Positions 3,454 to 43,275 of a DNA stretch of 64,000 nucleotides are shown here, piece after piece. Origin of the DNA: Pseudomonas sp. B6002 (GTDB lineage Bacteria > Pseudomonadota > Gammaproteobacteria > Pseudomonadales > Pseudomonadaceae). The notes under the pieces were generated by a model. That model worked only from the letters and a program-made list of their open reading frames with translations, ran no database searches and was not told where the DNA came from. Every line of letters begins with the position of its first letter. The stretch's first letter is position 1. The stretch is taken from NCBI RefSeq assembly GCF_013385985.1, contig NZ_JACAOY010000012.1:288064-352063 (forward strand), written 5' to 3'. Both the position numbers and the translations under genes were made by a program.

Positions 3454-5136
3454 ATGCGAGAAAGACCCGTGACGAACCCGGCGCCCACCCCTGCCGTGTT
3501 CATCAATGCGCAAAACGCGATCACCGGCCTGCGCGGTCGGGACTTGCTGTCGACGCTGCGCAGTGTTGCCGCCCACGGCTTGCGCAACCCGGTGCATACC
3601 GCTCGTCATGCCTGGGCGCTGAGCGGCCAACTGGGTCGCGTGCTGCTGGGTGAGACCGTGCATGAGCCCAACCCCAGTGACAGCCGCTTCAGTGACCCCA
3701 CCTGGAAGCTCAACCCGCTCTACCGGCGCAGCCTGCAGGCTTACCTGAGCTGGCAAAAGCAGACGCGCCACTGGATCGACGACAGCTCGCTGAGCGCCGA
3801 TGACCGGGCCCGCGCACACTTTGCCTTCTCCCTGCTCAACGACGCCGTCTCCCCTTCCAACACCCTGCTCAACCCGCTGGCCGTCAAGGAGTTGCTCAAC
3901 TCCGGGGGCAACAGCGTGGTGCGCGGTGTCACCAACCTGTTCGAAGACCTGCTGCACAACAATGGCCTGCCGCGCCAAGTGAGCAAGCACGCGTTCGAAG
4001 TGGGCAAGACGGTTGCCACCACCCCGGGCTCGGTGGTGTTTCGCAACGAGCTGCTGGAGCTGATCCAGTACAAGCCCATGAGCGAAAAGCAGTACGCCAA
4101 GCCGCTGCTGGTGGTGCCGCCGCAAATCAACAAGTACTACATTTTCGACCTCAGCCCCGCCAACAGCTTCGTGCAGTACGCCCTCAAGAACGGCCTGCAG
4201 ACCTTCATGGTCAGCTGGCGCAACCCGGACGTGCGCCATCGCGAATGGGGGCTTTCCACTTACGTTGCGGCGCTGGAAGAAGCCCTCAACGTCTGCCGGG
4301 CCATCACGGGTGCACGGGAGGTCAACCTGATGGGCGCCTGCGCCGGTGGCCTGACCATCGCCGCCCTGCAAGGCCACCTGCAAGCCAAGCGCCAGTTGCG
4401 GCGCATCTCCAGCGCCAGCTACCTGGTAAGCCTGCTCGACAGCCAGATCGACAGCCCCGCCACGCTGTTTGCCGACGAGCAAACCCTGGAGGCGGCCAAA
4501 CGCCGCTCCTACCAACAGGGCGTGCTGGACGGCCGCGACATGGCCAAGGTGTTCGCCTGGATGCGCCCCAATGACCTGATCTGGAACTACTGGATCAACA
4601 ACTACCTGCTGGGCAAGGAACCCCCGGCCTTCGACATCCTGTACTGGAACAACGACAACACACGCTTGCCCGCCGCATTGCACGGCGACCTGCTGGATTT
4701 CTTCAAGCACAACCCGCTGAGCCATCCCGGTGGCCTGGAGGTGTGCGGCACGCCTATCGACTTGCAGAAGGTCACGGTGGACAGCTTCAGCGTGGCCGGG
4801 ATCAACGACCACATCACGCCGTGGGACGCGGTGTATCGCTCCACCCAGTTGCTGGGGGGCGAGCGGCGCTTCGTGCTGTCCAACAGCGGGCATATCCAGA
4901 GCATCCTCAACCCGCCGGGCAACCCCAAGGCCAACTACGTCGAGAACCCCAAACTGAGCAGCGACCCCCGCGCCTGGTACTACGACGCCAACCACGTCGA
5001 AGGCAGTTGGTGGCCACAGTGGCTGGAATGGGTGCAACAGCGCTCCGGCGTGCAGCGCGAAACCCTCACCGCCCTGGGCAACCAGAACTACCCACCGATG
5101 GAAGCAGCGCCGGGCACCTATGTGCGTGTGCGCTGA
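3454..5136 (+). CDS. phaC2: class II poly(3-hydroxyalkanoate) synthase 2
   Basis: Second PHA synthase, paralogous to PhaC1 along its whole length, with the same chemistry and probably a different substrate preference. At 560 residues it has the nucleophile Cys296 in GACAGG, the Asp in INDHITPW and the His in NSGHIQS. I start it at ATG 3454 because AAGGAG lies nine bases upstream at 3439-3444; the frame is open further upstream but has no comparable site. A GTG at 3469 is the alternative. It follows phaZ by 89 bp and precedes phaD by 27 bp. Confidence 0.96.
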   Translation: MRERPVTNPAPTPAVFINAQNAITGLRGRDLLSTLRSVAAHGLRNPVHTARHAWALSGQLGRVLLGETVHEPNPSDSRFSDPTWKLNPLYRRSLQAYLSWQKQTRHWIDDSSLSADDRARAHFAFSLLNDAVSPSNTLLNPLAVKELLNSGGNSVVRGVTNLFEDLLHNNGLPRQVSKHAFEVGKTVATTPGSVVFRNELLELIQYKPMSEKQYAKPLLVVPPQINKYYIFDLSPANSFVQYALKNGLQTFMVSWRNPDVRHREWGLSTYVAALEEALNVCRAITGAREVNLMGACAGGLTIAALQGHLQAKRQLRRISSASYLVSLLDSQIDSPATLFADEQTLEAAKRRSYQQGVLDGRDMAKVFAWMRPNDLIWNYWINNYLLGKEPPAFDILYWNNDNTRLPAALHGDLLDFFKHNPLSHPGGLEVCGTPIDLQKVTVDSFSVAGINDHITPWDAVYRSTQLLGGERRFVLSNSGHIQSILNPPGNPKANYVENPKLSSDPRAWYYDANHVEGSWWPQWLEWVQQRSGVQRETLTALGNQNYPPMEAAPGTYVRVR

Positions 5137-5163
5137 ACTCAACGATCACACTAAGAAGACTGG

Positions 5164-5784
5164 ATGAAGACCCGCGACCGTATCCTTGAATGTGCCCTGC
5201 AGTTGTTCAACCAGAAGGGCGAGCCGAACGTGTCGACCATGGAGGTGGCCAATGAAATGGGGATCAGCCCCGGCAACCTCTACTACCACTTCCATGGCAA
5301 GGAGCCTTTGGTGCTCGGGCTGTTCGAGCGCTTTCAATGCGAGCTGGCGCCCCTGCTCGATCCGCCCGCTGACGCGCAGCTGGAGGCCGAGGATTACTGG
5401 CTGTTCCTGCACCTGATTGTCGAGCGCATGGCCCATTACCGGTTTCTGTTCCAGGACCTGTCGAACCTGGCCGGGCGCCTGCCGAAGCTGGCCAAAGGCA
5501 TTCGCCACCTGCTCACGGCACTCAAGCGTACGCTGGCGTCGCTGTTGGCACGGTTGAAGACCTCGGGGCAACTGGTCAGTGGCACCCAGGCACTGGGGCA
5601 ACTGGTGGAGCAAATCACATTGACCCTGCTGTTTTCGCTGGACTACCAGCGGATTCTCGACCGTGAAGGAGAGATACGGGTGGTGGTCTACCAGATCGTG
5701 ATGCTGGTGGCGCCGCACTTGCTGCTGCCGGCGCGGCTGGCGACCGAGAAATTCGCACTCAAATACCTGGATGAAATCGATTAA
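5164..5784 (+). CDS. phaD: TetR-family regulator of the PHA cluster
   Basis: A 206-residue TetR-type DNA-binding protein. The helix-turn-helix lies at residues 20-47 (VSTMEVANEMGISPGNLYYHFHGKE), followed by an all-helical ligand and dimerisation domain. In P. putida PhaD activates the phaC1 and phaI promoters and responds to a fatty-acid-derived CoA ester (family knowledge, from memory). ATG 5164 follows phaC2 closely, so it is likely co-transcribed. It converges on phaF with a bidirectional terminator between them. Confidence 0.95.
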   Translation: MKTRDRILECALQLFNQKGEPNVSTMEVANEMGISPGNLYYHFHGKEPLVLGLFERFQCELAPLLDPPADAQLEAEDYWLFLHLIVERMAHYRFLFQDLSNLAGRLPKLAKGIRHLLTALKRTLASLLARLKTSGQLVSGTQALGQLVEQITLTLLFSLDYQRILDREGEIRVVVYQIVMLVAPHLLLPARLATEKFALKYLDEID

Positions 5785-5787
5785 AAC

Positions 5788-5891
5788 TGTGGGAGCGGCG
5801 GTGCGACGATTCGACTTGCCCGCGATAGCAATAGATCAGCCAATATCTATGTGACTGAAACTCCGTCATCGCGGGCAAGCCCGCTCCCACA
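5788..5891. repeat. REP pair (REPIN-like), diverged left half
   Basis: TGTGGGAGCGGCGG at 5788 pairs with the inverted GCGGGCAAGCCCGCTCCCAC ending at 5890. The left half carries an insertion-like GTGCGACGATTCGA segment between the GGGAGCGG and CTTGCCCGCGAT parts; a similar arrangement occurs near 19,830. Confidence 0.75.
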
Positions 5892-5921
5892 TTGGAAGTG
5901 CGATATAGGTGAGACTTCCAT

Positions 5922-5959
5922 AAAAAAACGCCCGACCTTTACAGGCCGGGCGTTTTTTG
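5922..5959. terminator. bidirectional terminator between phaD and phaF
   Basis: AAAAAAACGCCCG-acctttacagg-CGGGCGTTTTTT: a GC-rich stem flanked by A and T runs on either side, so it can end both the phaD transcript and the convergent phaF transcript. Confidence 0.92.
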
Positions 5960-5972
5960 TGCCCTGAGAAAA

Positions 5973-6962
5973 TCAGGACTGACTGGAGGGCGTCGGGGTT
6001 ACCGGCGTTGCAGTCGGGGTGGTCGCAGCGTGGGTCGGTGCGGACACCGAGTTGGCTGTTGAAGCGGCAGGTGCCGGAGTGGCTGGCTTGGCCGCAACAA
6101 CAGGCTTGGCCGCTGCTGGTTTTTTCGCTACCGCAGGCTTCTTCGCGGCGGCTGGTTTTGCCGCAGGCTTGGCGGCCGCAGGTTTAGCAGCAGCCGGTTT
6201 GGCTGCAGGTTTCGCAGCAGCGGGCTTGGCAGCAGGTTTAGCGGCTGCGGTTTTAGCCGCTGGCTTGGCGGCTGGTTTTGCGGCGGCCTTGGCGGCAGTT
6301 TTAGCAGCCGGTTTGGCAGCGGTTTTAGCGGCCACTGGTTTAGCGGCAGGCTTGGCAGCCGGTTTTGCCGCTGCTGTTTTAGCCGCAGGCTTGGCAGCTG
6401 GTTTAGCGGCGGCTTTGGCGGGTGCCTTGGCCGCAGGTTTTGCAGCCGGTTTGGCAGCAGCTTTTACCAGAGGCTTGGCTGCAGGTTTCGCTGCAGGCTT
6501 GGCCGCTGCGGTTTTAGCGGCCGGTTTGGCAGCAGGTTTGGCGGCAGCGGTTTTCACAGGGGCCACTTTGGCGCCGGTGAGTTTTTCGATTTGCTTGGTC
6601 AACGTGTCGACCTTGCTGTGCAGTGCCTTCAGCTCTGCCTTACTGGGTACGCCCAGTCTCGAAATCGCACTGTTGAGGCGCTTGTCGAAAGTTTCTTCCA
6701 ACTTGCCCCAGGTGTCAGAAATACCCGACTTGGCGGAACCGGCAGTTGCCTTGGCCGCTTCAACTGTTTTACCCACTGTGCTTTTGGTCAACTTCTCGGC
6801 TTTCTCACCGTCCTTGACCAAAGACTCGAAGAGTTTTTTGCCTTCACCAATGCTAGCCTTCGAGTACACGCCTAAACCAGCAAGCCAGATCTTACGGGAA
6901 TATTTTTCAACTTCCCCGACCCACGAGCTGCCTTCTTTCTGAGTAGTCTTTTTAACAGCCAT
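5973..6962 (-). CDS. phaF: phasin PhaF with histone-like KPAA tail
   Basis: A granule-surface protein that stabilises PHA granules and links them to the nucleoid, helping even partition at division (known for P. putida PhaF). Residues 1-130 form the phasin domain, including the YSRKIWLAGLGVYSK element shared with PhaI and a helical, probably oligomerising stretch to about residue 128. From about residue 135 to 295 the chain is nearly all Lys, Pro and Ala in KPAAK/KTAAAK repeats, resembling histone H1 and expected to bind DNA without sequence specificity. It ends in a Thr/Pro/Ser-rich tip. At 329 residues it is on the long side; repeat number is expected to vary between strains. It follows phaI by 12 bp. 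Confidence 0.95.
   Translation of the reverse strand: MAVKKTTQKEGSSWVGEVEKYSRKIWLAGLGVYSKASIGEGKKLFESLVKDGEKAEKLTKSTVGKTVEAAKATAGSAKSGISDTWGKLEETFDKRLNSAISRLGVPSKAELKALHSKVDTLTKQIEKLTGAKVAPVKTAAAKPAAKPAAKTAAAKPAAKPAAKPLVKAAAKPAAKPAAKAPAKAAAKPAAKPAAKTAAAKPAAKPAAKPVAAKTAAKPAAKTAAKAAAKPAAKPAAKTAAAKPAAKPAAAKPAAKPAAAKPAAAKPAAKPAAAKKPAVAKKPAAAKPVVAAKPATPAPAASTANSVSAPTHAATTPTATPVTPTPSSQS
6080..6555 (-). repeat. coding tandem low-complexity repeat (KPAA) within phaF
   Basis: GC-rich imperfect repeats of roughly 12-27 bp encode Ala-Ala-Lys-Pro units. Codon choice varies between units (GCA, GCC, GCT and GCG all occur), so it is old or selected for protein content rather than a fresh slippage array. 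Confidence 0.85.
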
Positions 6963-29090: not shown

Positions 29091-30026
29091 TCAGGGTTTC
29101 AGGCTGGCCCGTACCGCCGCCGCGCCATCACCGCCATCAAACGCTTGAACGCCGGCCAGCCAGCGCTGCAAATCCTCAGGATGATCACGCAACCATTGCT
29201 TGGCCACATCCTGCGGCGATTGGCGCTCCATGATCGGCACCATCAGCTGGCTTTCCTGGGCGGCGGTGAAGGTGAGGTTTTCCAGCAGGCGGTTGGCATT
29301 CGGGCAGCGCTCGGCAAAATCCGGCGCGGTGACGGTGGACACGGTGGCGCGGCCTTCATCGGCGCCGAACACGTCTTCACTGCCGGTGAGGTAGGCCATT
29401 TTCATGTTGATGTTCATCGGGTGCGGGGTCCAGCCGACGAACACCACGAACTCCTTGCGGTTCACCGCCCGCTGCACCGCCGCCAGCATGCCGGCTTCAC
29501 CGGAAGCCACCAGTTTGAAACCGCCGAGGCCGAAGTGGTTGGTGTCGATCATCTTCTGGATATCGGTGTTAGCGCCGCTACCGGGCTCGATCCCGTAGAT
29601 CTTGCCACCCAGTTTGTCCTTGAAGCGGGCGATGTCGGCAAAGGTCTTCAGGCCTGCGTCGGCCACGTACTGCGGCACGGCCAGGGTGGCCTGGGCATCG
29701 GCCAGGCTGGGTTTGTCGAAGACTTTGACTTGCTTGGCGGCCAGGAACGGCGCGATGTTGTTGTCCATCGCCGGTTTCCAGTAGCCGAGGAAGATATCCA
29801 GGCGCTTGTCGCGAATGCCGGCAAAGATGATCTGCTGCACCGCGCTGGTCTGCTTGCTGTCGTAGCCCAGGCCATTGAGCAGCACGTCGGCCATGCCCGA
29901 GGTGGCGATCACGTCAGTCCAGCTGACCACGCCCATGCGGATGCTTTTGCAGGAGGCCGGCTCGGCGGCCATGGCGTTGGCGCTGATCAGCACGGCGCAG
30001 GTGAGGGTCAACAACAGTCTTTTCAT
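29091..30026 (-). CDS. choline/betaine ABC transporter substrate-binding protein, orphan
   Basis: A 311-residue type II binding protein of the ChoX/CaiX class. The signal peptide (KRLLLTLTCAVLISANAMA) is cleaved before AEPASCKSIRMGVVSWTDVI. Aromatic and Asp residues that could box a quaternary ammonium are in LGYWKPAMDNN, YGIEPGSGANTD and GWTPHPMN. No permease or ATPase gene is adjacent, so it probably works with a transporter encoded elsewhere, as known for several Pseudomonas binding proteins. It lies downstream of hutG on the same strand, separated by an inverted REP pair. Confidence 0.88.
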   Translation of the reverse strand: MKRLLLTLTCAVLISANAMAAEPASCKSIRMGVVSWTDVIATSGMADVLLNGLGYDSKQTSAVQQIIFAGIRDKRLDIFLGYWKPAMDNNIAPFLAAKQVKVFDKPSLADAQATLAVPQYVADAGLKTFADIARFKDKLGGKIYGIEPGSGANTDIQKMIDTNHFGLGGFKLVASGEAGMLAAVQRAVNRKEFVVFVGWTPHPMNINMKMAYLTGSEDVFGADEGRATVSTVTAPDFAERCPNANRLLENLTFTAAQESQLMVPIMERQSPQDVAKQWLRDHPEDLQRWLAGVQAFDGGDGAAAVRASLKP

Positions 30027-33839: not shown

Positions 33840-35372
33840 TTACAAACTTGGCAGCAGCTTGGCCGGCACCAGTTCATTCAGGCAGCGGCTGGCGAGCAGT
33901 TCGCTGGCGGCGTTGATGTCCGGGGCGAAGAAACGGTCTTTTTCATAGAACGCCACTTTGTCGCGCAGGATGCCGCGCGCTTTCTCAAGCTTGGCCGAGG
34001 TCTTGAGGCCGTCACGCAGGTCCAGGCCCTGGCACGCGGCCAGCCATTCAACCGCCAACACGCCACGGGTGTTCTCGGCCATTTCCCACAGGCGCTTGCC
34101 CGCAGCCGGGGCCATCGACACGTGGTCTTCCTGGTTGGCCGACGTCGGCAGACTGTCCACACTGTGCGGGTGGGCCAGTGCCTTGTTCTCGCTGGCGAGC
34201 GCGGCAGCGGTCACCTGGGCGATCATGAAGCCGGAGTTCACCCCGCCATTGCCCACCAAAAACGGCGGCAGTTGCGACATGTGCTTGTCCATCATCAGCG
34301 AGATACGGCGCTCGCTCAGGGAACCGATTTCGGCGATGGCCAGGGCCATGTTGTCCGCGGCCATGGCCACGGGTTCGGCGTGGAAGTTACCACCGGAGAT
34401 CACGTCGCCTTCGGCGGCAAACACCAGCGGGTTATCCGACACGGCGTTGGCTTCGACCACCAGCACTTCAGCGGCCTGGCGGAACTGGGTCAGGCACGCG
34501 CCCATGACTTGTGGCTGGCAACGCAGGGAGTACGGGTCTTGCACCTTGTCGCAGTTCTGGTGCGACTGCGACACCTGGCTGCTGTCGCCGAGCAGGTCGC
34601 GATAGGCGGCCGCTGCATCGATCTGCCCACGCTGACCACGCGCAGCATGAATGCGTGCGTCGAACGGCGAGCGCGAACCCAGCACCGCTTCCACGGTGAG
34701 CGCGCCGCACGCCAGGGCGCCAGCGAACAGGTCTTCGCCTTCGAACAACCCGCGCAGTGCGTAAGCGGTGGACACCTGGGTGCCATTGAGCAGCGCCAGG
34801 CCTTCTTTGGCGGCGAGGGTCAGCGGCGTGAGGCCGGCGACTTTCAGCGCTTCGGTGGCTTCCAGCCATTCGCCTTTGTAGCGCGCCTTGCCTTCGCCCA
34901 GCAGCACCAGGGACATGTGCGCCAAGGGCGCCAGGTCGCCGGAGGCACCGACCGAACCTTTCAGAGGTATATGCGGGTACACCTCGGCATTGATCAGCGC
35001 GATCAGCGCGTCGATTACCTGGCGGCGAATCCCGGAGAACCCACGGCTGAGGCTGTTGACCTTGAGCACCATGACCAGCCGCACCAGCGCATCGCTGATC
35101 GGCTCACCGACGCCGGCGGCGTGGGACAGCACCAGGGAACGCTGGAGGTTTTCCAGGTCTTCGCTGGCGATGCGGGTCGAGGCCAGCAGGCCGAAACCGG
35201 TGTTGATGCCGTAGGCGGTGCGGTTCTCGGCGAGAATCTGCTCCACGCAGGCCACACTGGCGTCGATCTGCGCCGTGGCGCTGTCATCCAGACTGAGGGT
35301 TACCGGCTGCTGGTAGATGGCCCGCAGTTGGGCGAGGCTCAGTTGGCCTGGAATCAGGTTTAGCGCAGTCAC
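33840..35372 (-). CDS. hutH: histidine ammonia-lyase (catalytically intact copy)
   Basis: First step: L-histidine to urocanate and ammonia. From GTG 35372 (AAGGAG seven bases upstream; the ATG at 35378 has only one base of spacing) it is 510 residues, the length of P. putida HutH. The MIO cofactor triad Ala143-Ser-Gly is present in [15 protein letters not shown]. Other active-site residues are visible: Tyr in YGINTGFG, His in VLSHAAGVG, Asn in LLNGTQ, QDPYSLR, GNFHAEP and NQEDHVSM. It stands between hutT and the MIO-less paralogue. Called hutH2 in some P. fluorescens literature (from memory). Confidence 0.97.
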
Positions 35373-35406
35373 ATTCATGCTCCTTTTGAGAGTGTTGTTA
35401 ACTACC

Positions 35407-35492: not shown

Positions 35493-37016
35493 TCAGTGCA
35501 AATTCGGCAAGGTGCGCTGCAGCAACGCGGCGTCCTTGAGCAAGGCGGCGGCGGTGGCGATGTCCGGCGCAAGCCAACGGTCCTGCTCATACGCTGGCAC
35601 CCCTTCACGCAGCAATCGCCAGGCGCTGTCAGTGCCGGCGCCGAAACGCTGGTCCTTCAGGAACTCGAACGCCTGGGCCGCCAGCAGGTACTCGATGGCG
35701 AGGATCTGCGTCACGTTGGCCAACACCTGGTGCAGCTTGAGCGCGGCATTGGTGCCCATGCTCAGGTGGTCTTCCTGCAGGCCCGAGGTGACGAAGTTGT
35801 CGAGTACCGCCGGTTGCGCCAGCTGGCGGTTTTGCCCGCACAGGGAGGCGGCGACGTACTGCACGATCATCATCCCGGAGTTGACCCCGGGGTTGCTCAC
35901 CAGGAACGCCGGCAAGCCACTGACGTGCGGGTTGATCAGGCGGTCCAGGCGGCGCTCGGCCACGGAGCCGATCTCGGCCATGGCGATGGCGAGCATGTCG
36001 GCGGCCAGCGCCACGGACTGCCCGTGGGGGTTGGCCTGGGACACCACGCGGTAGTTGTCCGGCGTGCCGAGCACCAGCGGGTTGTCGGTGGCGCTGTTGA
36101 GTTCGGTCTCGACCTGGCGGGTGGCGTGCTCCACTTGATCACGCGCGGCGCCGTGAATCTGCGGGATCGAACGGATGCTCAAGGCGTCCTGGGTGCGGAG
36201 GCCTTTGCTGCTGGCGATCACTTCGCTGCCGTCGAGCAAGGCGCGCAGGTTGATGCCCACTTGCTGCATGCCAGGGTGTGGCTTGAGCGCAATGATTTCT
36301 TCATCGAAGGCGTCGATCTGCCCGCGCTGGGCCTCGAAACTCATGGCGCCGATCACGTCGGCCCATTGCAGCAAATGGTGAGCATCGGCCAGGGCCAGGC
36401 AGCTCAGGCCGGTCATGCACGGGGTACCGTTGACCAGGCACAAGCCGTCTTTGGCGCCGAGCACCACAGGGTGCAAACCTTCTGCGCTTAATGCCTCTTG
36501 CGCCGAAACGATCTTGCCCCGGTAACTCACATTGCCGACGCCCAGCAAGGCCACGCCGACATGGGCCATGTGGGTCAGGTAACCCACCGAACCCTGGGAC
36601 GGCACTTGCGGCGTGATGCCGTGGTTGAGCAGCGCCAGCAGCGAATGCACCACCTGCGGGTGCAGGCCGGATTTGCCGTGGCTGTAGTTGATGATGGCGG
36701 CGCAGATGATTGCGCGGGTCTGCTCGTCACTGAGCACCGGGCCGACGCCGCAGGCGTGGCTCAGCAGCGTATTGCGCGACAGTTGGCTGAGCTGCTCGCC
36801 CTTGAGCGACACATTGCACAGCGCGCCCAGGCCGGTGTTCACGCCGTAGGCGCGTTCGCCGCTGGTGACGATGCGTTGCACGATGGCTTGTGCATTATCG
36901 ATGCGTGCCCAGGCCTGGCCCGAGAGTTCGAGGACGGCGCCGTGACGGGCGACGGCGACCACGTCCTGCCAGCGCAATGGCGTATCCGCGATGGTGATTT
37001 TTGTTGGCTGGGACAT
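35493..37016 (-). CDS. histidine ammonia-lyase paralogue lacking the MIO motif
   Basis: A 507-residue member of the aromatic amino-acid lyase family, aligning with HutH end to end, but residues 142-149 read GSVGYLTH where active enzymes read [14 protein letters not shown]. The six-residue shortfall removes the Ala-Ser-Gly that forms the methylidene-imidazolone cofactor. The frame is intact. Also changed: Tyr of QDPYSLR (here QDALSIR) and Phe of GNFHAEP (here ANPHGQS). Retained: Tyr in YGVNTGLG, His in LLSHACGVG, Asn in LVNGTP, and Glu in LQEDHLSM. ATG 37016 follows AAGAAGG. Normal ammonia-lyase chemistry is unlikely; it may regulate or pair with HutH, or have a new activity. Probably the hutH1 gene of P. 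fluorescens literature. Confidence 0.9.
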   Translation of the reverse strand: MSQPTKITIADTPLRWQDVVAVARHGAVLELSGQAWARIDNAQAIVQRIVTSGERAYGVNTGLGALCNVSLKGEQLSQLSRNTLLSHACGVGPVLSDEQTRAIICAAIINYSHGKSGLHPQVVHSLLALLNHGITPQVPSQGSVGYLTHMAHVGVALLGVGNVSYRGKIVSAQEALSAEGLHPVVLGAKDGLCLVNGTPCMTGLSCLALADAHHLLQWADVIGAMSFEAQRGQIDAFDEEIIALKPHPGMQQVGINLRALLDGSEVIASSKGLRTQDALSIRSIPQIHGAARDQVEHATRQVETELNSATDNPLVLGTPDNYRVVSQANPHGQSVALAADMLAIAMAEIGSVAERRLDRLINPHVSGLPAFLVSNPGVNSGMMIVQYVAASLCGQNRQLAQPAVLDNFVTSGLQEDHLSMGTNAALKLHQVLANVTQILAIEYLLAAQAFEFLKDQRFGAGTDSAWRLLREGVPAYEQDRWLAPDIATAAALLKDAALLQRTLPNLH

Positions 37017-37222: not shown

Positions 37223-38047
37223 TCAGACCACCGCCGCCCGCCGCTGTACGAACCGGTCCACATACTCATCCGCCGGCGAGTGCAGGATCTCTCGCGGTGT
37301 GCCGACCTGGATCAGCTTGCCATCCTTGAGGATCGCAATGCGGTTGCCGATGCGTACGGCCTCGTCGAGGTCGTGGGTGATGAACACGATGGTCTTGTGC
37401 AGGGTCTTTTGCAGCTCGAGCAACTGGTCCTGCATCTCGGCGCGGATCAGCGGGTCGAGGGCGCTGAAGGCTTCGTCCATCAGGATGATGTCGGTGTCGG
37501 CCGCCAAGGCGCGGGCCAGGCCAACGCGCTGGCGCATGCCGCCAGAGAGCTGGTGCGGGTATTTGTTTTCGTAGCCCTTCAGGCCCACGGTTTCGATCCA
37601 GTGCAGCGCGCGCTCGGCGCAGACCTGCTTGGTTTCGCCACGCACTTTCAAGCCGTAGGCGACGTTGTCGAGCACGCTCTTGTGGGGCAACAGGCCGAAG
37701 CTCTGGAACACCATGCTGATCTTGTGCCGACGGAATTGGCGCAGGGCTTCCATGTCCAGTTGCAGGATGTCTTCGCCGTCCACCAGGATCGCACCGCTGG
37801 TGGGGTCGATCAGGCGGTTGAAGTGGCGCACCAAGGTAGATTTGCCGGAACCCGACAGGCCCATGATCACGAAGATCTCACCGGTGCCGATGCTCAGGGA
37901 CAAATCGTTCACGCCGACCACACAGCCGGTCTCGGCCAGCACCTGGTCCTTGGTCTTGCCTTGGCCGATCAGCGACAGCGCGTCCTTGGAACGGGCGCCG
38001 AAGATCTTGAAGACGTTTTTAACTTCAATTTTGCTGACAGTAGTCAT
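37223..38047 (-). CDS. hutV: histidine ABC transporter ATP-binding subunit (ProV-type)
   Basis: ATPase of a quaternary-amine-type importer, 274 residues. It has Walker [10 protein letters not shown], signature [15 protein letters not shown], Walker [14 protein letters not shown] and the switch in FITHDLDEA. The N-terminal [30 protein letters not shown] extension is typical of ProV-like proteins; the chain stops without CBS domains. It overlaps hutW by 4 bp. Location in the hut operon supports histidine as substrate, as reported for HutXWV in related strains (from memory). Confidence 0.92.
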
Positions 38048-38895
38048 TTGCTCGCCTCATGCCGTGGACGACCATAGGCCTGGGTAATGCGGTCGATGAC
38101 CACTGCGAGAATCACGATCGCCAGCCCGGCTTCGAGGCCGCGACCGACGTTGAGGGTCTGGATGCCGACCAGCACGTCTTCACCCAAGCCACGGGCGCCG
38201 ATCATCGAGGCGATCACCACCATCGACAGCGCCATCATGGTGGTCTGGTTGATACCGGCCATGATGCTCGGCAACGCCAGCGGCAGTTGCACGCCGAACA
38301 GTTGCTGCCAGCGGTTGGCACCGAAGGCGTTGATGGCTTCCATGACTTCGCCGTCGACCTGGCGAATGCCCAAGTCGGTCAGGCGAATCAGCGGCGGTGC
38401 GGCGTAGATCACCGTGGCGAAGATCGCAGGGACTTTGCCCAGGCCGAACAGCATCAACACCGGGATCAGGTACACGAAGCTCGGCATGGTCTGCATGATG
38501 TCGAGCAACGGCATCAGCACCGAACGCAGGCGATTGCTGCGCGCCGACAGAATGCCCAGCGGGATACCGATCAGCACCGAGATCACCGTGGCGACCATCA
38601 TCAAGGCCAGGGTCTGCATCAGCTTGTCCCACAGGCCAACCGCGCCCACCAGGAACAACAAACCGACGATCACCGCCGTGGTCACCACCTTGCGGGTGGC
38701 ATGCCAGGCAACGCCGGCAACGATGGCCAGCATCAGCCACCACGGTGCTGCGCGCAGCAAGCCTTCCAGGTTGACGATGGCCCACAGCAGGGTGTCGGAG
38801 ATGTGCCGGAACACATCGCCGTAGTTGGTGACCAGTGAATCCACCCAACTGTTGACCCAGTCGGCAATGGAAAACGTAAAACTCTCAGGAAACAT
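38044..38895 (-). CDS. hutW: histidine ABC transporter permease (ProW-type)
   Basis: A 283-residue permease with about six or seven predicted membrane helices. The EAA-type loop is [51 protein letters not shown], characteristic of ProW. The first 60 residues are a polar N-terminal section ([19 protein letters not shown]). It is translationally coupled to hutV and follows hutX by 72 bp. Confidence 0.93.
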
Positions 38896-38967: not shown

Positions 38968-39933
38968 CTACAAGGCCGCGTCGATTTTCTTGGCTGCGTC
39001 GTCGCTCACCCATGCGTGCCAGACTTCAGGATGTTCCTTGAGGAAAATTTTCGCCAGTTTTGGCGATTCAATTCGCTCTTTGGCCATGCGACCGAGGTTC
39101 TGGTTCAGCAGGTCGATGGGCAGGTTGACCTTTTCCAGCACGGCCACCAGCTCTGGCGCCTGCTCGTGGAAGGTCTTGGACAGGCCGACCTTGATGCTCA
39201 CGCTTTTATCCACGCCGGGCTTTTCTTCCAGCTTGACCAGGTCGACCTGGCCCATCAGCGGCGTCGGCGACCAGTAGTAGAACAGGATCGGCTCGCCACG
39301 CTTGTAGCTCGACAGCACCGCCGCATCCAGCGCCGGGCCAGTGCCTGGGCGGAAGTTGGTGTAGGAATTTTCCAGGCCGTAGCTTTTCAGCATTTCGCTG
39401 TTGTCCAGCTCGCAGGTCCAGCCGGCCGGGCAGTTGTAGAAACGCCCCTTGGACGGCTCTTCCTGGTCCTTGAACACCGAGGCGTACTTGGCCAGGTCGG
39501 CGATGTTTTTCAGGTCCGGCGCCTTGGGCTCCAGCTTGCGCTTGGCATCGCCCTCGATCACATAGCGCGGCACGTACCAGCCTTCGATCGCACCGACCAC
39601 CGGAGCACCGACGCCCACGACTTTGCCGGCCTTCTCGGCCTTGTTCCAGACTTCACTGCGGCCCACCCATTCTTCGGCGAAGACCTGGATGTCGTTGCTG
39701 CTCAGGGCGTTTTCCATAGTGATGGAGTTGCCCGGCAGGCTGTCGGTTTTGCAGTCGTAGCCTTTTTCCAGCACGGTTTGCAGGATATCGGTGAGCAACA
39801 TGCCGCTTTCCCAGTTAAGGCCGGCGAACTTCACCGGCTTGCCGGATTCGCACCAGCCGGCCGCCTGGGCGCCAGCACTGGCCAACACGCCCGCAGAGAA
39901 CACAGTGGCCAACAGGGTTTTATTCATCTTCAT
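38968..39933 (-). CDS. hutX: histidine ABC transporter binding protein (ProX-type)
   Basis: A 321-residue periplasmic binding protein. I use ATG 39933, ten bases after GGGAG; a second Met two codons later and a longer frame to 39996 are less supported. Its signal peptide (MNKTLLATVFSAGVLASAGAQA) is cleaved before AGWCESGKPVKFAG. Family features include LNWESGMLLTDILQTVLEKGYDC and the EEWVGRSEVW segment. Although it resembles glycine-betaine binders, its place in hutXWV points to histidine. Confidence 0.9.
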   Translation of the reverse strand: MKMNKTLLATVFSAGVLASAGAQAAGWCESGKPVKFAGLNWESGMLLTDILQTVLEKGYDCKTDSLPGNSITMENALSSNDIQVFAEEWVGRSEVWNKAEKAGKVVGVGAPVVGAIEGWYVPRYVIEGDAKRKLEPKAPDLKNIADLAKYASVFKDQEEPSKGRFYNCPAGWTCELDNSEMLKSYGLENSYTNFRPGTGPALDAAVLSSYKRGEPILFYYWSPTPLMGQVDLVKLEEKPGVDKSVSIKVGLSKTFHEQAPELVAVLEKVNLPIDLLNQNLGRMAKERIESPKLAKIFLKEHPEVWHAWVSDDAAKKIDAAL

Positions 39934-40002
39934 TGTTGTGACGCTCCCAATCTTGAAATGGATTACGGCAGTCAGTAGGCATCCTGCCCTGTCCACGTCC
40001 CA

Positions 40003-41451
40003 TCAGGCTTGTACCGCCAGCCCGTTTGTCGTCGTTGGTGCAGCGCCCTGCTCTGCTGGCAGGATCAGGTGTTCAGGAATTGCGCTGTGCCACTTTTTGG
40101 CGGCCCAGTAATACAGTGCAGCGGGCACCACCAAGCCGATGATCCAGGAGATATCGGTGTCGCCGAGGCTGGCGACGAGGGGGCCGGTGTAGAAGTGCGT
40201 CGAGATGAACGGCATCTGGATCAGCACGCCGAACACATAGATGCTGATGCCCATCAGGTTCCAGCGGCCGTAGCGACCGTTGGGATTGGACAACGCAGGA
40301 ATGTCATAGCGCTCTTTGGTGATGCAGTAGAAGTCCACCAGGTTGATTGCACTCCAGGGCGTGAAAAACGCCAGCAGGAACAGGATGAACGCGGAGAAAT
40401 CCTTGAGGAATGAGTCTTTTCCCAAAAGTGCCAGCGCGGCGGCAATCGAGACCATCAGGAAGATGTACAGCAGGCGTACCGCACTGGAGATGTGCCGGCT
40501 GCCACGAAAGCCGCTGATGATCGTCGCGATGGACATGAAGCTGCCGTAGGCGTTGAGGGTGGTCACGGTGACCTTGCCGAAGGCGATGCTGAAATACAGC
40601 AGCGCCGCGACAATGCCGGTGCCGCCCAGGCCGACGATAAACGAGACTTCGTGGTGAGCGAATTGCGCGCCGGCCAGGGCTGCCGCGAACACACCAAACA
40701 CCATCGACGCCTGCGCTCCGATCACCGAACCCAGACCAACGGCCCAGAAGGTTTTCGACGCGCTGGTGCTGCGCGGCAAATAGCGCGAGTAGTCCGCCAC
40801 ATACGGGCCGAACGCGATCTGCCAGGACGCCGACAACGAAATCGCCAACAGGAAACTGCTCAGGGAAAAGTGCTTGTTGCCCAGCAACGCCGCCACGTCG
40901 TTACCCGCCAACAGTTTGTAGAACAGGTACACGAACGCAATCACGCCCAGCACGCTGGCCACGCGGCCGATGCCGTGGATGACGCGGTAGCCGAAAATGG
41001 TGAACACCATGATCAACCCGGCGAACAACACGATGCCGACCCAGTCTTCCACGTGCAGCAACTGCGCCACCGCCTGCCCCGCCAGCAACGAACCGCTGGC
41101 CGAGAAGCCGATGTACATCAGGCACACCAGCACCAGCGGGATCACCGCCCCATACACACCAAACTGCACACGGCTGGAAATCATCTGCGGCAAGCCCAGT
41201 TGCGGGCCTTGTGCCGCATGCAACGCCATCACGCCACCGCCCAGCAGTTGGCCGATCAACAGACCGATCAACGACCAGAACACATCACCGCCCAGCACCA
41301 CGGCCAGGGCCCCGGTGACAATCGCGGTGATCTGCAGGTTGGCACCCAGCCACAGGGTGAACTGGCTCAATAGACGACCATGTCTTTCCGCTTCCGGGAT
41401 GTAGTCGATCGAGCGCCTTTCGATCAACGGGGTGGTGTCATTTGCAGCCAT
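40003..41451 (-). CDS. NCS1-family permease, probable urocanate transporter
   Basis: A 482-residue transporter of the nucleobase-cation-symport-1 (cytosine/purine permease) family with about 12 membrane helices. N-terminal ERRSIDYIPEAERHGRLLSQFTLWLGANLQITAIVTGAL is typical. I use ATG 41451 with AGAGG nine bases upstream. It stands directly behind hutU. In P. fluorescens a gene here is reported as the urocanate permease hutTu (from memory), which would make urocanate the substrate; the sequence alone says only NCS1. Confidence 0.86.
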   Translation of the reverse strand: MAANDTTPLIERRSIDYIPEAERHGRLLSQFTLWLGANLQITAIVTGALAVVLGGDVFWSLIGLLIGQLLGGGVMALHAAQGPQLGLPQMISSRVQFGVYGAVIPLVLVCLMYIGFSASGSLLAGQAVAQLLHVEDWVGIVLFAGLIMVFTIFGYRVIHGIGRVASVLGVIAFVYLFYKLLAGNDVAALLGNKHFSLSSFLLAISLSASWQIAFGPYVADYSRYLPRSTSASKTFWAVGLGSVIGAQASMVFGVFAAALAGAQFAHHEVSFIVGLGGTGIVAALLYFSIAFGKVTVTTLNAYGSFMSIATIISGFRGSRHISSAVRLLYIFLMVSIAAALALLGKDSFLKDFSAFILFLLAFFTPWSAINLVDFYCITKERYDIPALSNPNGRYGRWNLMGISIYVFGVLIQMPFISTHFYTGPLVASLGDTDISWIIGLVVPAALYYWAAKKWHSAIPEHLILPAEQGAAPTTTNGLAVQA

Positions 41452-41496
41452 GTTGTTCAACCTCTGATGGATTGTTTTTGTGTGCATTGCTGTTCT

Positions 41497-41604: not shown

Positions 41605-43275
41605 TTACTTGATCATTGGGAGGTTGAGGCCCTGTTCTTTGGCGCAGTCGATCGCGATCTGGTAGCCGGCGTCTGCGTGGCGCATCACGCCGGTGGCCGG
41701 GTCGTTGTGCAGCACGCGGGCGATACGCTCGGCGGCTTCGTCGGTACCGTCGCAGACGATGACCATGCCGGAGTGCTGGGAGAAGCCCATGCCGACGCCG
41801 CCACCGTGGTGCAGCGACACCCAGGTCGCGCCGCTCGCGGTGTTGAGCAAGGCGTTGAGCAGTGGCCAGTCGGACACGGCGTCGGAACCGTCCTGCATGG
41901 CTTCGGTTTCACGGTTCGGGCTGGAGACCGAGCCGGAGTCGAGGTGGTCGCGGCCGATCACCACCGGCGCCGACAGCTCGCCGCTGCGTACCATTTCGTT
42001 GAACGCCAGGCCCAGCTTGGCGCGTTGGCCCAGGCCGACCCAGCAGATACGCGCCGGCAGGCCCTGGAAGCTGATGCGCTCGCGCGCCATGTCCAGCCAG
42101 TTGTGCAGGTGGGCGTCGTCCGGGATCAGCTCTTTGACTTTGGCGTCGGTCTTGTAGATGTCTTGCGGGTCGCCCGACAGCGCCGCCCAACGGAACGGGC
42201 CAATGCCACGGCAGAACAGTGGGCGGATGTAGGCCGGTACGAAACCCGGGAAGTCGAAGGCATTTTCCACGCCCTCTTCCTGGGCCATCTGGCGGATGTT
42301 GTTGCCGTAGTCGAAGGTCGGGATGCCTTGTTTCTGGAATTCCAGCATGGCTTTGACGTGCACGGCCATCGACTGCTTGGCGGCCTTGATCACGGCAGCC
42401 GGCTCGGTCTTGGCGCGGGCGCGGTATTCGTCCCAGGTCCAGCCGGCTGGCAGGTAGCCGTTGAGTGGGTCGTGGGCGCTGGTCTGGTCGGTGACCATGT
42501 CTGGGCGCACGCCACGCTTGACCAGTTCCGGCAGGATTTCCGCCGCGTTACCCAGCAGGGCGATGGAGATGGCCTTGCCTTCCTTGGTGTATTTGGCGAT
42601 GCGAGCCAGGGCGTCGTCGAGGTCGGTGGCTTGTTCGTCGACATAACGGCTGTTCAGGCGGAAGTCGATGCTGACCTGCTGGCATTCAATGTTCAGCGAG
42701 CAGGCGCCAGCCAAAGTAGCGGCCAGAGGCTGGGCGCCGCCCATGCCGCCGAGGCCGGCGGTGAGGACCCAGCGGCCGGTCAGGTCGCTGTTGTAGTGTT
42801 GGCGGCCGGCTTCGACGAAGGTTTCGTAGGTGCCCTGGACGATGCCTTGGCTGCCGATGTAGATCCAGCTGCCGGCGGTCATCTGGCCGTACATGGCCAG
42901 GCCCTTGGCATCCAGTTCGTTGAAGTGTTCCCAGCTGGCCCAGTGCGGTACCAGGTTGGAGTTGGCGATCAGTACACGCGGAGCGTTGCTGTGGGTCTTG
43001 AACACGCCAACCGGCTTGCCGGATTGCACCAGCAGGGTTTCGTCGTCGTTCAGGTTAGTGAGGCTCTCGACGATCTGGTCGTAGCACTCCCAGTTGCGCG
43101 CCGCACGGCCGATACCGCCGTACACCACCAATTCTTTCGGGTTCTCGGCCACTTGCGGGTCGAGGTTGTTCATCAGCATGCGCAGCGGCGCTTCAGTCAG
43201 CCAGCTTTTGGCAGTGAGCTTGTTACCGTGGGCGGCACGGATTTCGACGTCACGGTATTTTGTAGGCTTGGTCAC
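41605..43275 (-). CDS. hutU: urocanate hydratase
   Basis: Second step: urocanate to imidazolone propionate, using tightly bound NAD+. The 556-residue standard-length protein has the glycine-rich NAD loop [12 protein letters not shown], the family Cys-region near [10 protein letters not shown], and the C-terminal [13 protein letters not shown] and [13 protein letters not shown] signatures. It starts at GTG 43275, with GAGGAG eight bases upstream. First gene of the main hut operon, preceded by a sigma-54 type promoter and a HutC-type operator. Confidence 0.97.

Follow-up and report, generated by a model that had tools for sequence, protein, structure and literature searches.

A conserved MIO-less paralogue of histidine ammonia-lyase in the Pseudomonas hut operon is a candidate hercynine trimethylamine-lyase

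The DNA analyzed here, referred to as the window, is a 64,000-nucleotide stretch of the Pseudomonas sp. B6002 genome. It contains a hut cluster on the minus strand with the gene order hutU, NCS1-type transporter, hutX, hutW, hutV, hutH1 and hutH. hutU (41605..43275) encodes urocanate hydratase (TIGR01228, 1017 bits against a cut-off of 375), the predicted consumer of the HutH1 product. The NCS1-type transporter gene (40003..41487; TIGR00800 E = 1e-27, below the cut-off) we take to be hutTu from the gene order, the name also used in a review on the hut operon of P. fluorescens SBW25. hutX (38968..39996) encodes a betaine-type binding protein, hutW (38044..38895) a permease whose best match is of choline/betaine type (TIGR03416, 296.9 bits, below the equivalog cut-off of 363), and hutV (37223..38047) the ATPase of a betaine/proline/choline-family ABC importer (TIGR01186, 365.6 bits, cut-off 326.6). 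hutH1 (35493..37016) is followed by hutH (hutH2, 33840..35378), a canonical histidine ammonia-lyase (HAL) with an intact MIO triad (TIGR01225, 731 bits, cut-off 539). At the end of the cluster lies a gene for a second betaine-type binding protein, of the choline-binding family (29091..30026, minus strand; TIGR03414, 433 bits, cut-off 379; 2reg, E = 2.5e-77). HutX has Trp110, Trp193 and Trp242 (ORF numbering), conserved in all 89 HutX sequences of at least 65% identity. They align with Trp65, Trp140 and Trp188 of E. coli ProX, which we take to be its betaine cage.

The hutH1 reading frame has an ATG start and no internal stops, and encodes an aromatic amino acid lyase (PF00221) of 507 amino acids that we predict to be a hercynine trimethylamine-lyase. 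At the place of the MIO loop of HutH it has GSVGYLTHM (36567..36593, minus strand), without Ala-Ser-Gly. A preliminary description of this DNA had drawn attention to the motif, and re-reading the minus strand from 36593 to 36570 again gave GSVGYLTH. Sequence comparison bore out its further statements that HutH1 is six residues shorter than the adjoining HutH at the MIO site and lacks Ala-Ser-Gly, that QDPYSLR and GNFHAEP of HutH have become QDALSIR and ANPHGQS, and that YGVNTG, SHACGVG, LVNGTP and LQEDHLSM are retained. The same description called the MIO motif cleanly deleted. The absence is real, but the wording implies a recent event, and HutH1 belongs to a separate, old clade with approximately 40% identity to HutH. 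HutH1 has lost the MIO precursor triad, and it is neither the result of a recent deletion nor a pseudogene.

Membership of the superfamily is given by the match to PF00221, with 556 bits against a gathering cut-off of 27.3 (E = 7e-167). The NCBIfam subfamily model PRK09367 (histidine ammonia-lyase) also accepts HutH1 at 556 bits (cut-off 524), while the equivalog TIGR01225 gives 538.1 bits, narrowly below its cut-off of 539.15. The P. putida HAL (1b8f) and hutH2 of the window have the MIO triad together with Tyr280 and Phe329, whereas HutH1 is without all three. HutH1 therefore lacks the features expected of an MIO-dependent HAL, i.e. the Ala-Ser-Gly triad, Tyr280 and Phe329, and a TIGR01225 score above the cut-off. 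It could still be a histidine ammonia-lyase isozyme, either MIO-free or with the MIO built from other residues, and the HAL-like fold, the retention of most residues and the PRK09367 score would agree with that; given the missing triad, the two changed residues and the TIGR01225 score we consider this very unlikely.

We examined conservation in the best 80 of 439 related stretches, all from named Pseudomonas records, among which L003, L005 and L006 are one strain. GSVGYLTHM is present and the reading frame is open in 80/80 of these loci. Because it is kept in all of them the motif is not a product of chance or of sequencing error, and an assembly or reading-frame artefact was ruled out. The median pairwise dN/dS, a plain pairwise estimate by the method of Nei and Gojobori, is 0.101 for HutH1, compared with 0.057 for the HutH sequences at those loci (81 sequences each), and pN/pS is 0.09 across the 20 residues around GSVGYLTHM. 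The preliminary description had argued that the gene is not a decaying pseudogene and named dN/dS as the measure to use; the value of approximately 0.10 over 81 sequences indicates purifying selection and so sides with it against decay. Being an additional copy next to a functional hutH, hutH1 might be a decaying duplicate, and one H1 with an internal stop is found among the matches listed (G080, a genome that is 86% complete). The open frames in the best 80 of 439 loci, the separate clade, the dN/dS and the invariant residues described below leave this reading with a negligible probability, the last two being the evidence that refutes it.

H1 is present in 209 of 299 sampled Pseudomonas genomes, where a best E ≤ 1e-130 was taken as H1. 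Five candidates were scored per genome, and a re-search of eight genomes with all candidates scored produced no change. The pattern GSVGY[LI][TSA]HMAH is kept in divergent H1 sequences down to 49% identity (L133), and also in L151 and L152 from another family of the order. Of 349 genomes from the phylum, 14 match it at the DNA level; three among them (G1113, G1179 and G1047) belong to two further families of the class. HutH1 is a conserved family with its own clade, and is present in other gammaproteobacterial families as well as in Pseudomonas.

The active site was compared in 106 H1 sequences, made up of those from the 80 loci (best 80 of 439) and 26 others, using HAL residue numbers that we take to apply to the columns of the H1 alignment. 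The equivalents of Tyr53, His83, Asn195, Gln277, Arg283 and Glu414 are unchanged in 106/106 sequences. Tyr280 is replaced by leucine in every one of the 106, and at the position of Phe329 there is proline in 103 and alanine in three. These are the two HAL residues named in the titles of crystal structures of mutants (Y280F and F329A) that were matched in a fold search. An AlphaFold2 model of HutH1 is confident overall (pLDDT 85.5, pTM 0.88), with poor stretches at 51-70, 271-280 and 401-420, the blocks that contain several of the catalytic-type residues. Both HALs and ergothionase match the model over its full length, and Foldseek ranks the HALs first. Judged from these sequences, the active site of HutH1 is rebuilt, not lost.

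To our knowledge the MIO-less relative of HutH1 with a known function is ergothionase, for which a structure paper of 2019 reportedly described four essential catalytic residues. From the part of a 2026 paper available to us (PMC13405746), ergothionase lacks MIO and splits ergothioneine into trimethylamine and thiourocanate. A term search of the accessible text of a review on MIO enzymes (PMC9002059) did not find ergothionase named. In the alignment the enzyme of Treponema denticola (6s7j; also 6s7q) has SSIGEGDITTLSHI at the MIO place. Ergothionase and H1 are thus alike in having no MIO triad, and both have leucine at the position of HAL Tyr280. We calculated an unrooted tree of 63 lyase rows after excluding the MIO and Tyr280 columns. 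The H1, HutH and ergothionase-type clades have support of 100/99, 98/90 and 100/99 respectively. The split that places H1 and ergothionase apart from HutH and a third type (L137 and L144) has support of 97/93 without the long-branch row X_L083, falling to 75/46 with it. Among the tree rows the residue at Tyr280 is leucine in 23/23 H1 and 15/15 of the ergothionase clade (6s7j plus 14 clade mates, of which only 6s7j is characterized), and tyrosine in 22/22 HutH and in both type-3 sequences.

In the tree HutH1 nevertheless lies outside the clade of 6s7j, in its own clade beside it. The two proteins are only 28% identical, and the loop deletion is larger in HutH1 and unlike that in ergothionase. 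In the alignment ergothionase has kept Phe329 and changed Asn195, while in HutH1 the reverse is found. Since Phe329 is kept in the one and is proline or alanine in the other, the two are not interchangeable. Their products should also differ, thiourocanate for ergothionase and, by our prediction, urocanate for HutH1. By raw score HutH1 is nearer to the MIO-bearing HALs of the PDB (E = 4e-106 to 9e-94) than to ergothionase (6e-68).

hutH1 is tightly linked to genes for betaine-type transporters, and often to hutU. In the best 80 of 439 loci hutH is directly downstream in 80/80, and hutV is directly upstream in 79/80, the remaining one starting too near the contig end. Across the genus a HutX ortholog (E ≤ 1e-125) is found in 196 of the 209 genomes with H1, compared with three of the 90 without it; the corresponding Fisher value of 7e-57 is overstated since related genomes are not independent. 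Of the 13 genomes with H1 and no HutX, six keep hutW and hutV beside H1 (presence of hutV being counted by direct tblastn), three have a BCCT (betaine/carnitine/choline) carrier, three a family-3 importer and one (L188) none of these in the stretch. As for the three genomes with HutX and no H1, the contig ends at hutV in G273, and in G043 and G249 (L258 and L259) hutC, hutX, hutW and hutV occur together in this order, but neither H1 nor HutH has a match in the genome. That set may be a remnant, or an importer serving something else.

We examined 26 further H1 loci (18 + 3 + 5) in stretches of 8 to 20 kb. HutU lies within the stretch in 18 of them, and in L189 and L190 HutU, HutXWV and H1 together form a compact unit. 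In the divergent loci L182, L183, L184, L197 and L198, the last two belonging to another family, the gene that separates hutU from hutH1 encodes a BCCT carrier according to a Pfam search. In L185-L187 and L240-L242 H1 is instead beside an importer with a binding protein of family 3 (polar amino acid type). In L185 the importer genes lie ahead of HutH1, and upstream of them is a DAO-type FAD oxidoreductase (5345-6484); oxidoreductases of this type can act on N-methylated amines. The most divergent H1, that of L188, has no transporter in the stretch and is missing the Asn-Pro pair of H1, and may have a different function.

These loci bear on the possibility that HutH1 is catalytically dead, and serves either as a subunit that regulates or stabilizes HutH within a mixed tetramer or as a sensor of histidine or urocanate. 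The loss of the MIO triad and of Tyr280 would be explained in this way, as would the position of hutH1 directly upstream of hutH throughout the close clade (80/80 of the best 80 of 439). So too would the dispensability of hutH1 for growth of SBW25 on histidine, as stated in the portion of the review seen. Yet a HutH gene is absent from the fetched stretch in 15 of the 26 loci, 14 of which have an adjoining transporter, and the presence of H1 goes with that of the transporter. Moreover six invariant HAL residues are more than a scaffold seems to need, and ergothionase demonstrates that lack of MIO is compatible with enzymatic function. A dead subunit or sensor is therefore improbable. Of the options offered in the preliminary description, the partner of HutH and the sensor are weakened by the loci without HutH, and the MIO-independent enzyme is the best supported, given the HAL-type catalytic residues kept in 106/106 sequences and the example of ergothionase. 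The neighboring transporters of quaternary-amine type, which point to a substrate, did not figure in that description.

MIO serves to convert the amino group of an amino acid, which leaves poorly, into a good leaving group. Once trimethylated, an amine can form no adduct with MIO, and it already leaves fairly well. Hercynine (N-alpha-trimethylhistidine, the betaine of histidine) is such a compound, made by fungi and by some bacteria (among them actinobacteria). A HAL-type pocket without MIO, transporters of betaine type and a urocanate hydratase together make hercynine a candidate substrate. We estimate a probability of approximately 55% that HutH1 is an MIO-independent lyase, acting most likely on hercynine that enters through HutXWV or a BCCT carrier. 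In the proposed scheme hercynine would be taken up by HutXWV, or in other clades by the BCCT carrier. Its trimethylammonium group, which cannot add to MIO, would leave without activation by it, so that acid/base catalysis would be enough for HutH1 to release trimethylamine, in the manner of ergothionase acting on ergothioneine. The conserved Leu279, Gln327 and Asn329-Pro330 of HutH1 are predicted to surround the trimethylammonium group. The other product would be urocanate, a compound that HutU and the later steps of the hut pathway convert to glutamate. The catalysis by HutH1, the hercynine substrate, the trimethylamine product and the residue-level mechanism are all predictions drawn from sequence.

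Importers of betaine type can accept histidine betaines. In the part of PMC9732360 consulted, the betaine-type importer EgtU is described as binding ergothioneine through a cage around the trimethylammonium, with hercynine bound 10,000-fold more weakly. In P. fluorescens SBW25, HutXWV is reportedly involved in the uptake of histidine, and its presence is for this reason no proof of a betaine substrate. In addition, since G043 and G249 carry the importer without H1 or HutH, it can serve something else. A main-text term search of the accessible part of a study that profiled the ligands of binding proteins from P. aeruginosa (PMC6829864) did not find PA5096 or PA5103 named. Counting against the proposal are also the six loci with family-3 importers, the raw score and Foldseek ranking nearer to HALs, the larger loop deletion, the change of Phe329, the weak binding of hercynine by EgtU and the second MIO-less type, described below, that keeps Tyr280.

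An MIO-independent HutH1 might alternatively act on another pre-activated histidine derivative, such as ergothioneine or its sulfonate, N-alpha-dimethylhistidine, or other N- or ring-substituted forms. The chemistry would be the same as for hercynine, and again ergothionase is the MIO-less relative of known function. The six loci where the importer is of amino-acid rather than betaine type, L185 with its DAO-type oxidoreductase included, would suit such a substrate. The BCCT carriers and the Trp-cage transporters, on the other hand, favor a fully quaternary amine. Ergothioneine would give thiourocanate, and the only match in the genome to the thiourocanate hydratase model is HutU of the window, at 690 bits (cut-off 930) compared with 1017 as urocanate hydratase. 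With no thiourocanate hydratase above the cut-off in a model search of its own genome, hercynine is favored over ergothioneine, and the latter was dropped as main substrate. Action on some other derivative is possible, although we think it doubtful.

HutH1 may well be the founding member of a hercynine trimethylamine-lyase family that is widespread in Pseudomonas and occurs in other Gammaproteobacteria too. Together with HutXWV or BCCT carriers it would allow the cell to feed on fungal or actinobacterial histidine betaine through the hut pathway, as a source of carbon and nitrogen. Urocanate is a known inducer of hut genes, and hercynine would probably induce hut through it. If this is correct, it provides one explanation for two features of the Pseudomonas hut operon, a second histidase gene that growth on histidine does not require and an ABC importer of betaine type, and hercynine gains a degradation route. 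It would also mean that loss of MIO in the superfamily goes with quaternary-amine substrates. The annotation would need correction, because the NCBI subfamily model names HutH1 a histidine ammonia-lyase, affecting 209 of the 299 sampled Pseudomonas genomes. In the open-licence literature we found no report of a HutH1-type function, i.e. hercynine breakdown by a lyase.

A paper of 2007 on SBW25 is said to have called one hutH copy nonfunctional. In the review cited above, as far as its text was accessible, the SBW25 operon has the order hutU-hutTu-hutXWV-hutH1-hutH2 as in the window, so that hutH1 is by position the same gene. There it is described as coding for a histidase, and the accessible text makes no mention of a missing MIO, of a likeness to ergothionase or of a betaine substrate. 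In another Pseudomonas both hutH copies are up under iron limitation, according to the part of PMC8069873 seen; from its length and position we infer that the 'HutH_2' of that text is the H1 gene.

Further lyases without the MIO triad were encountered. A second MIO-less PF00221 type, with GSVGYLGPEGHL, occurs in two Pseudomonas genomes (L137 and L144; L199 and L200). Like HutH1 it lacks the triad, and it adjoins ABC importer genes, but it retains Tyr280 and Phe329 and clusters with HutH, which HutH1 does not. Because these MIO-less proteins keep Tyr280, loss of MIO and the change of Tyr280 to leucine are not strictly tied. The genome that holds the window has another MIO-less PF00221 gene outside it (G000 contig C1:7802-9073; L084, L215), with GSLGESDLAPLAHL and QDPLSFR. 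This gene belongs to the ergothionase clade, and is near genes for a LysR regulator and an OpuAC-type binding protein. In L198 an ergothionase-type lyase and an OpuAC-type binding protein (4081-6545) adjoin the hut cluster that includes HutH1. Outside the class, each of five genomes that belong to a single family (G940, G943, G956, G1041 and G1137; L204-L214) shows two MIO-less paralogues of the ergothionase clade, approximately 50% and 41-44% identical to the ergothionase-type lyase of L198, and G999 shows one. The L198 genome, for its part, may degrade two histidine betaines.
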